Source: Sulfurimonas sp.
GTDB taxonomy: Bacteria > Campylobacterota > Campylobacteria > Campylobacterales > Sulfurimonadaceae
Direction of reading: 5' to 3'
Assembly (NCBI GenBank): GCA_013791885.1
Contig: VMSZ01000008.1
Span: 1-64,000 of the forward strand
DNA length: 64,000 nt
Of the stretch, positions 7,021-13,185 are shown one piece after another (position 1 is the stretch's first letter; each line of letters begins with the position of its first letter). The position numbers and the translations under genes were made by a program. The notes under the pieces were generated by a model. The model saw only the letters and a program-made list of their open reading frames with translations, made no database searches and was not told where the DNA came from.

Positions 7021-8835
7021 CTAGAATGTATTAAGATGTGCTAAAAATTCAGCCGGTGGAACAAAACCTACAATTGTTTTAGATTGGATTACATTTCCTT
7101 TTTCATCAAAAAAAAGTATCACAGGAGGGCCAAAAACTCCATACTTTTTACTGAGTGCTTTCTCTTTTTCTCCATTAGCCGTAACATCTGCGTTTATAAG
7201 TACAAAGTCATCCATTTTTGTTTTTACATCTGCGTTTGCAAAAGTGACTTCTTCAAGTTCTGTACATGCCGTACACCACTCTGCACTGAAGTCAAGGAGT
7301 ATTTTTTTTCCTTTGTTTTTAGCCAAAAGCACGTCAAGTTCTTCTATGGAAGTTACTTTTATAAACTTTTTATGCTTAACGGCAGAGACTGCGTTTACAC
7401 TTGCAGTTTGCGGTTTTAAAAACTCCAAAGGTTTTGTCATGCTTGTCGAACCGCCTAAAGCACCAATGAATAGTGCCGTCGCATAAGCAAATAATACAAG
7501 AGCAACACTGCGTTTAAAGATATGTCCCTCTCTTTCAAAAGGATTCAGATACAGAGCAAAGCCAAGACCAAGTACAGAGTAAAGAATCATTGTTGTGTAT
7601 CTGTCAACAATTCGCTCAAGCATCCAAATGGCAACACCGAGCATCATAACACCAAAGACGGCTGTAACCATGGTCATCCACGCTCCAGGTTTTGGCATGA
7701 ATTTACCGGCACTTACACCAACGGCAATAAGAGGAATTCCCATACCGATACTCATAGAAAAAAGTGCCATCCCGCCAAGAAGCGCATCCCCTGTCTGACC
7801 TATATAAACAAGTGCTCCGGCTAAAGGAGCCGCAACACACGGCCCGACGATAAGAGCCGATAAAAATCCCATAACGGCTACACCCAAATAGCCTGCACGA
7901 TGTCCTTTTGAACTTATTTTTGTTACAAACTTGTCCGGGAGTTTTAACTCATAAAAGCCAAACATGCTAAACGCAAGTGCCACAAAGATGAGGGCAAAAG
8001 AGTAAATAACCCATGGCGTTTGCAAGGCTGCCTGAAGATTAGAGCCAAACAAGCCTGCTAAAACACCTGCTATTGTGTAAGCAACAGCCATGGCCAAAAC
8101 GTATACCAAAGAGAGGGCAAATGCTTTTTTTGTACTCAAACCTTGCCCTTGAGAAATAATGACTCCAGAGATAATTGGAATCATAGGAAATACACAAGGC
8201 GTCATGGCAAGAAGCAAACCAAAACCGAGGAACGTGAGCAGTACAAACGCGACACTCTCCGACTTAATGGTATCTGCTATGGAGTCAGTTTGTGAGAGTT
8301 CTTGTGTCGCCAAGGAGCTTTCCTCAGGCTTTGCCACTTTGGTATTTTCACTCTCTTTCATCTCATTAAGAGTTGTAATATCCAAACTTTTAACTTTTTG
8401 TGTTTTGACATCCAACTTTGAAGTATCCACCTCAAAAGAGTAAGTTTTATGCAAAGGTTCATAGCAAAGTCCCTGCTCTGAACATCCTTGATAAGAGAGT
8501 GTAAATTGAACGTTTTGTACGCCTTTAACACCCTCTTCTTTTTGAAGGACAACAACAAAGTGTGGTGATTCAAGATACACTATATCACCTTCATGTTCTT
8601 CTTCTTTAGCTGAAGTGCTTATCTCTTTGATACTCATTCCATTTTGAGAATCAAGCTCTAATTTTGTTTTGTCTACATAGAGATAAATATCTTTTGCAAG
8701 AGTCACATCCGCTTCAAGCTGCATATTTTCATTTATTACTGCATTTGGGACAAACGCTTCATCTGGCATAAGAAATTTTGGAGGAGCAGCTAAAAGTGCA
8801 AATACTAAAGAGAAGAACAAAACAATTTTTTTCAT
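7021..8835 (-). CDS. dsbD: Thiol:disulphide interchange protein DsbD
   Basis: About 604 residues. It passes electrons from cytoplasmic thioredoxin across the inner membrane to periplasmic thiol proteins. All three modules are visible: signal peptide plus N-terminal periplasmic domain with GCSEQGLCYEP, a central domain with about eight membrane segments carrying the cysteine pair in MTPCVFPM and VGPCVAAPL, and a C-terminal thioredoxin domain with SAEWCTACTEL. The frame opens at ATG 8850, but the internal ATG 8835 begins directly with a clean signal peptide (KKIVLFFSLVFALL), so it is preferred; the choice is uncertain because no clear ribosome site is present. Four copies of the TGCGTTT word fall in its last 500 bases (7189-7515). 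Confidence 0.93.
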   Translation of the reverse strand: MKKIVLFFSLVFALLAAPPKFLMPDEAFVPNAVINENMQLEADVTLAKDIYLYVDKTKLELDSQNGMSIKEISTSAKEEEHEGDIVYLESPHFVVVLQKEEGVKGVQNVQFTLSYQGCSEQGLCYEPLHKTYSFEVDTSKLDVKTQKVKSLDITTLNEMKESENTKVAKPEESSLATQELSQTDSIADTIKSESVAFVLLTFLGFGLLLAMTPCVFPMIPIISGVIISQGQGLSTKKAFALSLVYVLAMAVAYTIAGVLAGLFGSNLQAALQTPWVIYSFALIFVALAFSMFGFYELKLPDKFVTKISSKGHRAGYLGVAVMGFLSALIVGPCVAAPLAGALVYIGQTGDALLGGMALFSMSIGMGIPLIAVGVSAGKFMPKPGAWMTMVTAVFGVMMLGVAIWMLERIVDRYTTMILYSVLGLGFALYLNPFEREGHIFKRSVALVLFAYATALFIGALGGSTSMTKPLEFLKPQTASVNAVSAVKHKKFIKVTSIEELDVLLAKNKGKKILLDFSAEWCTACTELEEVTFANADVKTKMDDFVLINADVTANGEKEKALSKKYGVFGPPVILFFDEKGNVIQSKTIVGFVPPAEFLAHLNTF

Positions 8836-8884
8836 ATATACATCCATCATTGATTTAAAGAGACCTATTTTATCTCTAAATTAT

Positions 8885-8974: not shown

Positions 8975-9196
8975 ATGATAGATTTAAATACGAAAGTATG
9001 TGTATGCAATAACCTGACTGCCGGGGATATTGCAAAATGCATCAAAGAGAACAGCTTCTCAAGCCTCGAAGAACTCCTTGAAAATGAAGTCTGTCCGATG
9101 GCAGATAAATGTGAATCTTGCAAAGATGAAGGCTTTAATAACGATGGAATAAATATTCCTCTTGTATTTGCAATGGTAAAAAAAGGCCAACTTTAA
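8975..9196 (+). CDS. BFD-like [2Fe-2S] protein
   Basis: 73 residues with the cysteine pattern of BFD-type [2Fe-2S] domains: VCVCNN near the N-terminus and CPMADKCESC near residue 40-49, the typical C-x-C ... C-x(n)-C spacing. Stand-alone members include bacterioferritin-associated ferredoxin, which helps release iron from bacterioferritin, but similar domains occur in nitrite reductase and NifU. The second half has an extra cysteine compared with E. coli Bfd, so the exact role is open. AAGGAG upstream supports ATG 8975. The divergent position next to dsbD suggests redox or iron handling. Confidence 0.75.
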   Translation: MIDLNTKVCVCNNLTAGDIAKCIKENSFSSLEELLENEVCPMADKCESCKDEGFNNDGINIPLVFAMVKKGQL

Positions 9197-9199
9197 GAG

Positions 9200-11785
9200 T
9201 TATTCTTGAAAGTGCTTTGGAATTTTGATAATAAAAGTCGTTCCCTCGTTCGAAGTTTGGACATCAATCTCTCCATTGAACTGTTTTTGTATAATCATCT
9301 GACTCATATAAAGTCCTAGCCCTGTCCCATTTTTGCCTTTTGTACTAAAATAGGGTTCAAAAATTTTTTTCATATTTTCTTCTGTAATCCCAGAAGCATT
9401 GTCTTTTACAAAAAGCAATACACTATCTTTATCTTCCTCTGCAAAAAGTTCTATTGTTTTTTCTTTTTTGTCCAAATCCTTAAAAGCGTCAATAGCATTG
9501 TTGAGTAAATTTAAAATCACTTGTACAAGTTCATTTTCGTAAACTAAAAGAACAATTTTTTCATTTTGTATAATTGCAATATTTATGCCTGTGTGTTCTG
9601 CTTTGGCAGAACCGAGCTTAAGTGCTCTTTTAAAAAGTTGTCCTGCTTCGACTTCACTTGCAATTCTGTCAGGTCTGAAAAAAGTTTGAAAATCATCAAT
9701 AGTTTGCGAAAGGTACATAATTTTTTCACTTATATCACTCAAAACCTGCTCTTTTTTTGCTTCATCTACTTTCTTTCCAAGCATAGACTCAAGCTGAATA
9801 TTCGATATTTGCAGTGTAATGGCTGAGAGAGGTTGTCTCCACTGATGCGCTATCATACTAATCATTTCACCCATTACAGCCTGTTTTGATTGGTTTGTGA
9901 GAAGAAGATCTTTTTTTATAAGTTCATTTATCTTCTCTTGAACCGTTTTTTCCAAAGACTCGTTAAGTTCGCGTAACTCTTGCGTTTTTTCCTCAACCTG
10001 ATACTCCAGTTTTGCATTAAAATTATAAAGTTTTTTCTGATAGTAAGCCATAATAAGAAAAAGTATCCCCATCCCCACTACAATTCTCGCCGCAAGAGAG
10101 TAATCTGTGCCATCATGGTACCTCGTCATCTTCCATCCGTCAACAATGCTCTCTTTTTTTTCTTCGGAGATGGAATCTAAAGATTTTTGCAAAATAGAGA
10201 AAAGCAAAGGCTCATTTTTTTGCACTCCAATACTTCCATAATCAAATTTGTCTTTGAGTAGAAAACCATTGACTTTAAGTTTTCCATATCCATACTTATC
10301 TACCAAATAATCTGAAATCTCATTAATCGTTACTACTCCAAAAACTTCATCTTTTAAAAGCTTTTGCATTAAACTGTAAATATTTTCTTCTACTTCAATT
10401 TGTAAATAAGGATACCTCTTGAGAATCATCTCTTTATGAAAGGCAAATCTTACGACAAGTTTTTTACCCTCAAGTCTATGCGAATCATCAATAAATGGTT
10501 TATCGAGTCTGCTCAAAATTGTAAAATGGGTCTTTAAAAAAGGTTTGCTTAAAACTAAATTCTTCAAATCATTCTTAGGTTCTTGGCAAATAGAAACTAT
10601 ACTGCACTCTTCATCAACTATTTTCTGCTTCATACCATCGTAGCGTTTTGACACTAACGGTATAAATTTTATGCCGGTTTTTTTCGAAATTTCTGTGTAA
10701 ATATCCCCCATAATTCCCGTATGTATAGCATCAAAATAACCATCAAGCGGATATAAGTCCGGTTGTAGACAAACTTTAATTTCTTTGTTTTTATTTATGT
10801 ATTCCAATTCTTCTTTTGAAAAATTTGGCTGATTATCTTTTATATCTTTAAAAATAAAATCATTAAAGTTCTTATCCTCTTTAATCTTGTAGTTTATTTT
10901 AAAATCTTCAAACTGTCTATGCAGAAAATTCTCATCTATAGAACCTATATCATATGTTTTTGGAAGAATTAAGCGTTCAATTTCTTTGGCCTCGGCCAAT
11001 AAATCATCTTTAGAAATATTTTTTGAGTATTTTTTATAAATAATCTCTATCATTTCTGCTTTATGATTTAACGCATATTTCCAGCCTTTTATACTGGCGT
11101 CTCTAAACGCCATAGCCCGCAAAGAGTGATTTATTGCTTCTTCTTTTGATGTAAAGAGTTCAAGTTGGAGATTAAAAAGTCCTATATCACTGGGGTTTAT
11201 AATGTTGTATTTTACTCCTAGTTTATCAAGCTTATGCGGTTGATCCGATATAAACGCAGTCATAGCGTCTACTTTCCCATCCACAAACTCGTCAATACCG
11301 TAACTATGCTCTACCAAATGCAACTCATTTAGCGCAAGATTATATTCACTCAAAAGAGATTTAAAATTCAGAAGAAAATCTTCTTTACCGGCTGCCATAA
11401 TTTTTTTGTCAATTAAATCGCTTGGGAAGTTGATTTCGGGTTGAACAATAAGTACTAAAGCAGATCTTTTAAAATAGGATGAGAGGAGTTTAATATCTTT
11501 ATTGTGTAGGTAACTGACTAAAATATTTGAATTATAAATTCCGTAATTTGCTCTTTTACTTAGGACCTCTTGCACTATATCTGTTGCAAATTGATACTCT
11601 TTAAGCTCAACATCAAGCCCAACTTCTTCATAAAAACCTTTTTCTTTTGCCGCTATAAATCCTGCAAATTGGAATTGATACTTCCAATGAAGCTGCAGCG
11701 ATACTTTTTCTAAGCGTTTTTGCACATCGGGATGTCCCCCGTACAAAGTTACTCCAAGAAAAAAGAGTAAAAACAGAACTCTCAA
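9200..11785 (-). CDS. Sensor histidine kinase with NMT1/THI5-like and SBP_bac_3 periplasmic domains
   Basis: 861 residues. Order: signal peptide, NMT1/THI5-like binding domain (about 25-245; LQLHWKYQFQFAGFIAA, KGFYEEVGLDVEL), a second extracytoplasmic SBP_bac_3 domain (about 335-560; EIKVCLQPDLYPLDG), one membrane helix (about 574-594), a coiled coil, then a kinase core with phospho-acceptor His647 in IAHQWRQPLSA and an ATPase domain (NLLNNAIDAF, DNASGI, GTGLGLYMSQ). It should sense small periplasmic ligands and phosphorylate a response regulator, but none is adjacent. The start is TTG 11785, overlapping the stop of the deoxyribosyltransferase gene (TTGA), so the two are coupled. NMT1/THI5 domains are known to bind pyrimidine thiamine precursors; the ligand here is not known. 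Confidence 0.9.
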   Translation of the reverse strand: MRVLFLLFFLGVTLYGGHPDVQKRLEKVSLQLHWKYQFQFAGFIAAKEKGFYEEVGLDVELKEYQFATDIVQEVLSKRANYGIYNSNILVSYLHNKDIKLLSSYFKRSALVLIVQPEINFPSDLIDKKIMAAGKEDFLLNFKSLLSEYNLALNELHLVEHSYGIDEFVDGKVDAMTAFISDQPHKLDKLGVKYNIINPSDIGLFNLQLELFTSKEEAINHSLRAMAFRDASIKGWKYALNHKAEMIEIIYKKYSKNISKDDLLAEAKEIERLILPKTYDIGSIDENFLHRQFEDFKINYKIKEDKNFNDFIFKDIKDNQPNFSKEELEYINKNKEIKVCLQPDLYPLDGYFDAIHTGIMGDIYTEISKKTGIKFIPLVSKRYDGMKQKIVDEECSIVSICQEPKNDLKNLVLSKPFLKTHFTILSRLDKPFIDDSHRLEGKKLVVRFAFHKEMILKRYPYLQIEVEENIYSLMQKLLKDEVFGVVTINEISDYLVDKYGYGKLKVNGFLLKDKFDYGSIGVQKNEPLLFSILQKSLDSISEEKKESIVDGWKMTRYHDGTDYSLAARIVVGMGILFLIMAYYQKKLYNFNAKLEYQVEEKTQELRELNESLEKTVQEKINELIKKDLLLTNQSKQAVMGEMISMIAHQWRQPLSAITLQISNIQLESMLGKKVDEAKKEQVLSDISEKIMYLSQTIDDFQTFFRPDRIASEVEAGQLFKRALKLGSAKAEHTGINIAIIQNEKIVLLVYENELVQVILNLLNNAIDAFKDLDKKEKTIELFAEEDKDSVLLFVKDNASGITEENMKKIFEPYFSTKGKNGTGLGLYMSQMIIQKQFNGEIDVQTSNEGTTFIIKIPKHFQE

Positions 11786-12288
11786 AATTCCCTCTCATTT
11801 ATCTTTTTGAGCACATCTTCAAAAGAGCCTTCAACAATTTCCAAAGCCGAACAGGCAATCATCAGATTTATAGGATAATCAAAATCTTCTATAAACCTGT
11901 CATCTTTATCCCAAAAAAATCCACCCTCTTCTTTTTTTTCATTCGTCCCAAAACTGTTAATATACGAACGTGTATTTTCCATATATCCGTACACTTTTTT
12001 ACCTTTGCCATAAGCATAGCCGCATTCCCAAACGGTTCCGCTGTCTGCTTCTTTACCCCTAAACGCATTGAGGTTGGCGATGACAATGTCACATTCATCT
12101 ATGAGTTTTTCATTTGCTGTAAAAATATCTAGAGCGATTTTTTTCTTCTCTTGATTAAAATCTATCACATTATCGAGTGGGTAGTGTCCGCTAAAACCAT
12201 ATCTTTCACATAATGATGCATAGTTTTTTCCTATTTCTATGGAATTTCTTTCAAAAACATCCGGACCTGCGATATAAATATTTTTCAC
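11782..12288 (-). CDS. Nucleoside 2-deoxyribosyltransferase
   Basis: 168 residues. It swaps the base on 2'-deoxyribonucleosides in salvage. The N-terminal IYIAGPDVF, the CDIVIANLNAFRG segment and ADSGTVWECGYAYGKGK (with the catalytic Glu of the family) are diagnostic. Length is normal. It lies divergent from a Tsx-type nucleoside channel and overlaps a sensor kinase gene downstream by four bases, which points to a nucleoside uptake and use module. On the minus strand the gap to the porin holds TGCTATTAT, an extended -10 candidate. Confidence 0.9.
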   Translation of the reverse strand: MKNIYIAGPDVFERNSIEIGKNYASLCERYGFSGHYPLDNVIDFNQEKKKIALDIFTANEKLIDECDIVIANLNAFRGKEADSGTVWECGYAYGKGKKVYGYMENTRSYINSFGTNEKKEEGGFFWDKDDRFIEDFDYPINLMIACSALEIVEGSFEDVLKKINEREF

Positions 12289-12405
12289 TCTTTCTAACCT
12301 TATTTAATTTTCAAAACATAATAGCATGTATTCAAATATAAATTCTTGAATTTAAGTCTCATTTTTATAGAATTCCTCCATATTATTTACAATAAAGAGC
12401 TAGCT

Positions 12406-13185
12406 ATGAACAACAACACAAAATTTAGAAATATTTTCAAGAGAGCTCTCTTTTTAGTATTCATATTATCTAGTATCTTACATGCCCAAAGTGCTTCTGC
12501 TGAAAAAAGTTTTTTAACTCCAAACTATTCTTTTAAAAATATAAGCATGAACTATCTAGACTGGAGTCAACATACAGAAGAAAAAACATCAAAAAGAGAT
12601 TTTTCTTACCTTGAATTTGAAGGCGGAGCCGGCTGGAATTGGGGCGAATTTTATATCTATTTTGACATTGAAAATCCTCTTGGAAAATACGAAGAGTCTA
12701 CTGCTAGTGCTCAGCGTTTAGCCTTCAAGCCTGTTTTAGATGTTAATCTTTATGAAAATCTTGCCCTGCATATCCATGATTTCAATTTCCACTCAACTGA
12801 CTATTATGTGCATAATTTAATTACCGGTCTCTCCTATAAAATTCAGACAGACTTCGGTTTATGGGTTCGGCCTTTTGTCGGCTCGCATTATCAGGAAAGC
12901 AGTTATTACAGCGGTTACAACGGAGTAATGACGGGATGGACTTTTTTGTATGCGTTTAACGTAATGGAGCAAAAATTTTCCCTTGCCCAGTGGCATGAGA
13001 TGACTTTTGGCAGAAATGAAAAAGACGGTTATGACAATAAAAACGGTATTCAGGGCGCACTTTCATTTTGGTGGCATCCAAACGCAGTCATCACAACAGG
13101 TTTACAATACCGCTATGCAGAAAATGAGTTAGGAAGCCAAGAGTATCAGGATGGTTTTATCTATAGTTTAAAATATAATTTTTAA
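12406..13185 (+). CDS. Tsx-like nucleoside-specific outer-membrane channel
   Basis: About 259 residues from ATG 12406. A signal peptide (RALFLVFILSSILHAQSASA) precedes a small beta-barrel with the Tsx blocks NYLDWSQ, DFSYLEFEGGAGWNWGEFYIYFDIENPLG and a C-terminal aromatic residue (LKYNF) typical of outer-membrane barrels. Tsx channels admit nucleosides. An upstream TTG at 12346 is in frame, but the signal peptide starts sensibly only from 12406, which has AAAGAG upstream. The neighbour is a nucleoside deoxyribosyltransferase on the opposite strand. Confidence 0.9.
   Translation: MNNNTKFRNIFKRALFLVFILSSILHAQSASAEKSFLTPNYSFKNISMNYLDWSQHTEEKTSKRDFSYLEFEGGAGWNWGEFYIYFDIENPLGKYEESTASAQRLAFKPVLDVNLYENLALHIHDFNFHSTDYYVHNLITGLSYKIQTDFGLWVRPFVGSHYQESSYYSGYNGVMTGWTFLYAFNVMEQKFSLAQWHEMTFGRNEKDGYDNKNGIQGALSFWWHPNAVITTGLQYRYAENELGSQEYQDGFIYSLKYNF

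Follow-up and report, generated by a model that had tools for sequence, protein, structure and literature searches.

The window analysed here is a stretch of 64,000 nucleotides from a Sulfurimonas sp. (contig C33 of a 2.52-Mb genome, 99.99% complete). In it, a gene for a nucleoside 2'-deoxyribosyltransferase-family enzyme, here named NDT, overlaps the start of a gene for a sensor histidine kinase, here named HK, and lies divergent from a gene for a Tsx-type outer-membrane porin (Table 1). A preliminary description had proposed that the three genes form one unit for uptake, use and sensing of external nucleosides or bases. Both the gene overlap and the NMT1/SBP_bac_3 architecture of the kinase were borne out by open reading frame (ORF) coordinates, Pfam and fold comparison, and at the locus itself the porin gene is indeed divergent from NDT. 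NDT and HK are a conserved sensor-enzyme pair, plausibly for nucleosides or bases.

Table 1. Features of the NDT-HK locus, in coordinates of the window (TM, transmembrane).
Feature	Coordinates	Strand	Remarks
NDT, nucleoside 2'-deoxyribosyltransferase-family enzyme	11782..12288	-	168 aa, GTG start; PF05014 E=4.3e-34
HK, sensor histidine kinase	9200..11785	-	861 aa, TTG start; signal peptide, two periplasmic SBP-like domains, TM, kinase
NDT stop/HK start overlap	11782..11785	-	4 nt, TTGA
NMT1/Thi5-type periplasmic domain, HK residues 37-243	11057..11677	-	PF09084 E=6.7e-31
SBP_bac_3 / BvgS VFT2-like periplasmic domain, HK residues 336-551	10133..10780	-	PF00497 E=2.8e-4 and fold
Predicted TM helix region, HK residues ~558-582	10040..10114	-	hydrophobic stretch; long helix 563-604 in model; boundaries by eye
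HisKA, HK residues 638-706	9668..9874	-	phospho-acceptor H647, codon 9845-9847
HATPase_c, HK residues 750-857	9215..9538	-	Pfam
Divergent intergenic region, NDT start to Tsx start	12289..12405	.	117 bp
Tsx-type outer-membrane porin	12406..13185	+	259 aa; PF03502 E=2.7e-38; optional neighbour of NDT-HK

The enzyme and the two-domain sensor kinase

NDT matched PF05014 with 117.6 bits (Pfam curated cut-off 28.8), covering positions 1-117 of the 117 of the profile, and its AlphaFold model had a mean pLDDT of 95.5. By sequence as well as by fold, the nearest solved structures were the NDTs of T. brucei and L. mexicana. A weaker fold match was DNPH1, which belongs to the same superfamily but hydrolyses nucleotides and is described with the triad Y24/D80/E104 (PMC10603095). 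Residues Y5, D67, D82, E88, N141, L142 and M143 were invariant in 24/24 aligned relatives from several phyla, and with the register counted on the alignment Y5, D82 and E88 correspond to Y7, D82 and E88 of C. thermalis NDT. Residue 62 of the C. thermalis enzyme, Asp in the wild type according to the title of the mutant's structure, is Asn both in the present family and in T. brucei NDT. NDT is likely an active deoxyribosyltransferase, with base exchange as the predicted reaction and hydrolysis alone as a possible alternative. Since the T. brucei enzyme is specific for purines according to PMC10208901, we infer that purines may be preferred.

The first periplasmic domain of HK scored 108.3 bits against PF09084 (cut-off 20.5). 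The SBP_bac_3 match of the second domain lay under the Pfam curated cut-off and was backed by a fold match to BvgS VFT2 (Z 25.1). The HK model had a mean pLDDT of 82 and a pTM of 0.42, so that the packing of its domains against one another is unreliable. The best fold matches of the modelled NMT1 domain were 3ix1 (ThiY, Z 30.5), 4nmy (thiamin-bound, Z 30.1) and Thi5 (Z 26), with SsuA (Z 23.9), PqqT (22.3) and CmpA (21.1) lower; aminopyrimidine- and thiamin-binding proteins thus outranked SsuA (Z 30 vs 24). Where 3ix1 and 4nmy have WxPNxxH, HK has WKYQFQF, a change that is partly common to other NMT1 receptors of the group. In SBP_bac_3 amino-acid binders, the arginine of the TxxR motif holds the amino-acid carboxylate. 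At residue 406 of HK (codon 10568-10570) we found D, whereas R stands in 9/9 NMT1-SBP_bac_3 HK paralogs and in 0/19 orthologs (register checked): the second domain has lost this amino-acid-binding arginine. The phospho-acceptor H647 was invariant in 28/28 aligned sequences. Somewhat tentatively, we infer that the ligand of HK may be a nucleoside, a base or a pyrimidine-like compound. Two further receptors of the same genome, on C52 and C56 (L111 and L112), are NMT1-GGDEF proteins, one of them with a Phosphonate-bd domain and the other with SBP_bac_3.

Conservation of the NDT-HK pair and recurrence of Tsx

We searched 149 related genomes, of which 29 matched NDT, one of them weakly. In the named collection 94 NDT relatives were found and 80 kept; with these loci added to those of the related genomes, the distinct Campylobacterota NDT loci numbered 48 (G108 included; 18 duplicate rows and the non-Campylobacterota loci L157-L198 set aside). 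An HK ortholog lay directly downstream of NDT in 27 of these 48, six of the paired kinases being cut by contig ends (G033, G057, G027, G034, L149 and L152), and each of the 27 had a candidate HK start located -23 to +9 nt from the NDT stop. The junction thus exceeds a chance arrangement, and the gene pair stands as a conserved, translationally coupled unit. Upstream of the 27 pairs the context varied: DUF255/PPK2/pdx genes in 16, Tsx in 5, Memo/radical-SAM in 3, a methyl-accepting chemotaxis protein (MCP) in 2 and LemA in 1.

Starting from the kinase gave a similar picture. HK orthologs (identity >= 46%) were present in 20 relatives, with NDT adjacent in 18, on one contig in 15 and with HK split between contigs in 3 (G027, G033, G034). 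The other two carried deletions at the NDT site, read by eye in draft genomes: in G038 the NDT-like sequence immediately before HK has kept a short start and end but lost its middle, and in G080 HK is truncated and a 3' end resembling tsx occupies the place expected for tsx and NDT. DsbD changed strand in G031, G048 and G083 around an intact NDT-HK junction. On the NDT tree, which is weakly resolved, parsimony counted 8 changes between the paired and unpaired states, but no more than 2 are required by branches with good support, and the paired loci were clustered (0/500 shuffles as low). NDT and HK probably came together on one or a few occasions, stayed joined while their surroundings were rearranged and in some cases parted again, and we regard the enzyme-sensor link as well supported by genomics.

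Several other genes lie near NDT or HK. Within the window, a small BFD-like [2Fe-2S] protein gene directly follows HK (8975-9196, +; PF04324 E 5e-5, just under the cut-off), with a homologous 99-aa ORF at the same site in G044 and G011, and a DsbD-type thiol:disulfide interchange protein gene, named by eye (7021-8850, -), is also close to NDT-HK in most relatives. Two genomes (L081 and L104) have, ahead of NDT-HK and in the same orientation, an MCP gene that runs into the pair and encodes a Tll0287-like domain, an arrangement compatible with a behavioural response. A small gene stands upstream of NDT in L141 (5550-6501, MazG-like) and L130 (5546-6492) and hints at nucleotide clean-up. In a Denitrovibrio metagenome-assembled genome, from another phylum, genes for a PAS-GGDEF protein, NDT and a dCache_3 HK stand in a row (L190, 5065-8434). 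Kinase-like genes near NDT in L130, L142, L169, L172, L177 and L190 were not counted as support, kinases being common.

The porin gene matched PF03502 with 132.6 bits (cut-off 27.2) and NCBIfam PRK11528 with 244 bits, under the cut-off of 282; a longer ORF with the same stop would begin at TTG 12346. Against E. coli Tsx, blastp aligned only a 34-residue piece and phmmer gave no hit, and this alignment being too weak, E. coli Tsx was dropped as a template for binding residues. Solid Tsx matches were found in 10/149 relatives and in 11/398 genomes of the order, two sets that overlap. Among 19 distinct tsx loci we read 18, leaving out G154 (partial, at a contig edge). In six of the 18, tsx is divergent from NDT: the window, G056, G075, L120, L152 and G189, five of these being among the 48 NDT loci and G189 having been found through Tsx. 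Four others (loci L217, L216, L219 and L221) lie in nupC/deo/cdd operons of the NupC-DeoC-DeoB-DeoD-Tsx-DeoA-Cdd type, in the Campylobacterales genomes G413, G167, G204 and G092; gene names rest on hidden Markov models for G413 and for NupC in G167, and on reading by eye for the rest of G167, G204 and G092. That homologs of the porin sit in these operons in four other genomes makes it credible that it serves nucleosides.

In G049 (L117, 1859-4820), the gene of an NMT1-SBP_bac_3-GGDEF sensor overlaps tsx, so that this porin also neighbours an NMT1 sensor of another kind, and in G079 tsx follows a histidine kinase-response regulator pair. Six loci (G057, G076, G083, G085, G244 and G361) had no recognised nucleoside neighbour. 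G189 (genus g40) pairs NDT and Tsx without HK, and G244 has the same flanks with NDT absent. NDT was present in 7/10 genomes with tsx vs 21/139 without (Fisher p=3e-4, which ignores relatedness; rows dropped were G039, with a weak NDT of 35%, and G016 and G023, with partial Tsx). Of the three-gene unit proposed earlier, the conserved NDT-HK pair and the recurrent NDT-Tsx neighbourhood therefore stand, but the trio is not fixed, tsx being absent or elsewhere in most NDT-HK genomes. With few genomes carrying Tsx, and only 6 loci having it beside NDT, we rejected the porin as an obligate third member.

A possible salvage role weighed against its rivals

By computation we observe the architecture, intact catalytic residues, coupling, the recurrence of NDT-HK and of NDT-Tsx, and the deo/nup context of Tsx homologs. 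It is a tentative reading, falling a little short of probable, that enzyme and sensor form a bicistronic unit by which the cell salvages nucleosides or nucleobases. The two proteins would be translated together; NDT, resembling the purine-specific enzyme of T. brucei, would exchange or remove the base of cytoplasmic deoxynucleosides, while HK, an orphan BvgS-like kinase, would use its NMT1 and SBP_bac_3 domains to monitor a small periplasmic ligand and would signal to an unlinked response regulator, adjusting salvage genes or behaviour. The divergent Tsx, where present, would admit nucleosides across the outer membrane. Control of salvage genes by HK is a presumptive part of this scheme, and that the nucleosides derive from lysed cells is speculation. 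Going further, the NMT1-type ectodomain of the HK orthogroup could represent a new class of bacterial nucleoside or nucleobase receptor, with the coupled NDT fitting the reported base pool to the needs of the cell in a self-contained unit that senses outside and exchanges inside; we consider this extension rather unlikely, although conceivable.

Several results weigh against a salvage unit. The uptake part of the earlier proposal is weakened, as no inner-membrane route appeared among the four permease families searched and no thymidine kinase was matched. The genome gave 0 matches to PF07662 (CNT), PF00860 (Xan_ur_permease), PF02608 (Bmp) and PF03825 (Nuc_H_symport), which leaves inner-membrane uptake unexplained, and 0 to thymidine kinase PF00265; PF01712 (dNK) gave one sub-threshold match full of stops, with no open gene. 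Each family searched was matched in some of its control genomes. For PF01048 there were 2 matches, perhaps to nucleosidases of another kind. The NMT1 name does not disclose the ligand of HK, since ligands in this family, taken from structure titles, span aminopyrimidines, thiamin, sulfonates, pyrroloquinoline quinone and bicarbonate. In PMC9602780, SBP_bac_3 proteins are predicted to bind amino acids and many NMT1 proteins ligands of the nitrate-sulfonate-taurine type, which counts against deriving the ligand from a family name. No response regulator gene adjoins HK at the locus. The Pfam scan found no receiver or HPt domain in HK, and no response regulator can be named for it because its nearest paralogs by kinase module, one of them in the same genome, are orphan too. 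Across the six NDT-Tsx intergenic regions compared, there was no inverted repeat and no common operator-like word; a shared NDT/Tsx operator was rejected, a single AT-rich 8-mer occurring in 4/6 regions. Promoter-like sites numbered 11, vs 18 expected from shuffles. Finally, 21/48 NDT loci lack HK, G009 and G087 keep NDT beside flank genes that elsewhere follow HK (DsbD or c10) with HK missing, and G038 retains HK while its NDT has decayed, so that the two genes are separable. Part of the synteny is plain inheritance, because DsbD follows HK in many of the same genomes.

It is quite possible, though we would not expect it, that HK senses an unrelated periplasmic solute (a sulfonate, a cofactor, redox or envelope state) and that NDT, as a house-cleaning enzyme, is only a passenger, its start and stop driving HK translation by coincidence. 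NMT1 receptors are indeed common, with 7 NMT1 matches in this genome and HK-like matches in 141/149 relatives; two of the 7 are the NMT1-GGDEF proteins, which have no nucleoside neighbours, the surroundings of NDT outside the group are mixed, and the gene immediately preceding NDT is MazG-like, for nucleotide clean-up, in L141 and probably so in L130 (only L141 was scanned). Such a passenger role sits less well with the HK orthogroup, which in 20 relatives was never away from NDT or its deletion site, with a pairing that survives across five upstream contexts, and with tsx joining NDT and, separately, another NMT1-SBP_bac_3 sensor.

Common descent might also account for the pair, if it formed a single time in Sulfurimonas-like bacteria and has been kept since by inheritance and coupled translation, the two genes being functionally unconnected. 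The clustering of paired NDTs on the tree, the mere 2 changes forced by supported branches and the frequent presence of DsbD nearby speak for such a lineage accident, but at least five upstream contexts and the DsbD strand flip around an intact junction, as well as the parsimony count of 8 changes on the weakly resolved tree, make it improbable. Very improbable, in our view, is that NDT is a cytoplasmic accessory, itself or its product binding and tuning the kinase module so that the pair reads the outside and inside levels of the same nucleoside. Coupled translation suits partners in a complex as an established principle, and HK is kept with NDT in 18/20 relatives; each gene nevertheless survives without the other (G009, G087, G038), and the fully conserved catalytic residues of NDT mean that a plain enzyme role suffices.

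The earlier statement that this pairing was not known as a described system agrees with searches of open-licence PubMed Central (PMC) text, which gave no description of an NDT coupled to an NMT1-type kinase; two papers that mention a nucleoside deoxyribosyltransferase as well as a histidine kinase do not, going by the title and the opening of the abstract, deal with it. The coupling is apparently undescribed, while every part is of a known kind. Searches of the same text gave no NMT1-type sensor with a known ligand, although such sensors are abundant in Campylobacterota. Genomes seldom point to a ligand class as they do here, where a conserved, coupled metabolic enzyme adjoins an NMT1 sensor and a nucleoside porin lies close by, and the class thereby becomes directly testable. 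If the salvage reading is true, sulfur oxidisers that live autotrophically would be on the lookout for nucleosides dissolved around them and would use these again.

Comparison with known systems

The deo/nup operons (nupC, deoC, deoB, deoD, tsx, deoA, cdd) of G413, G167, G204 and G092 share the Tsx family with this locus, but here Tsx meets NDT and HK, and NupC was not found in this genome. The dCache_1PU receptors (PMC11245519) likewise equip bacterial signal proteins with a periplasmic receptor, in their case for purines, and that paper derives them from a common ancestor with receptors for amino acids; they have another fold, dCache, and the abstract couples no biosynthetic or salvage enzyme to them. 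The first sensor domain of HK has the fold of ThiY, Thi5 and other PF09084 proteins (Z 26-30), but belongs to a kinase and differs from 3ix1 and 4nmy in the altered WxPNxxH stretch. With BvgS/EvgS, HK shares two periplasmic SBP-like domains, one TM segment and a HisKA-HATPase module, its second domain being nearest to BvgS VFT2. It differs in that its first domain is of NMT1/Thi5 type instead of a second SBP_bac_3, in being a plain kinase without the hybrid receiver and in having no adjacent response regulator. Because of this NMT1 domain and the lack of a receiver or HPt domain, HK would work like BvgS but is not filed as its ortholog. NDT, in turn, differs from the trypanosomatid purine NDTs in being bacterial, with predicted activity, coupled to a sensor kinase and ~30% identical over the fold alignment, yet the T. 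brucei and L. mexicana enzymes are its nearest solved relatives and their catalytic residues are retained.

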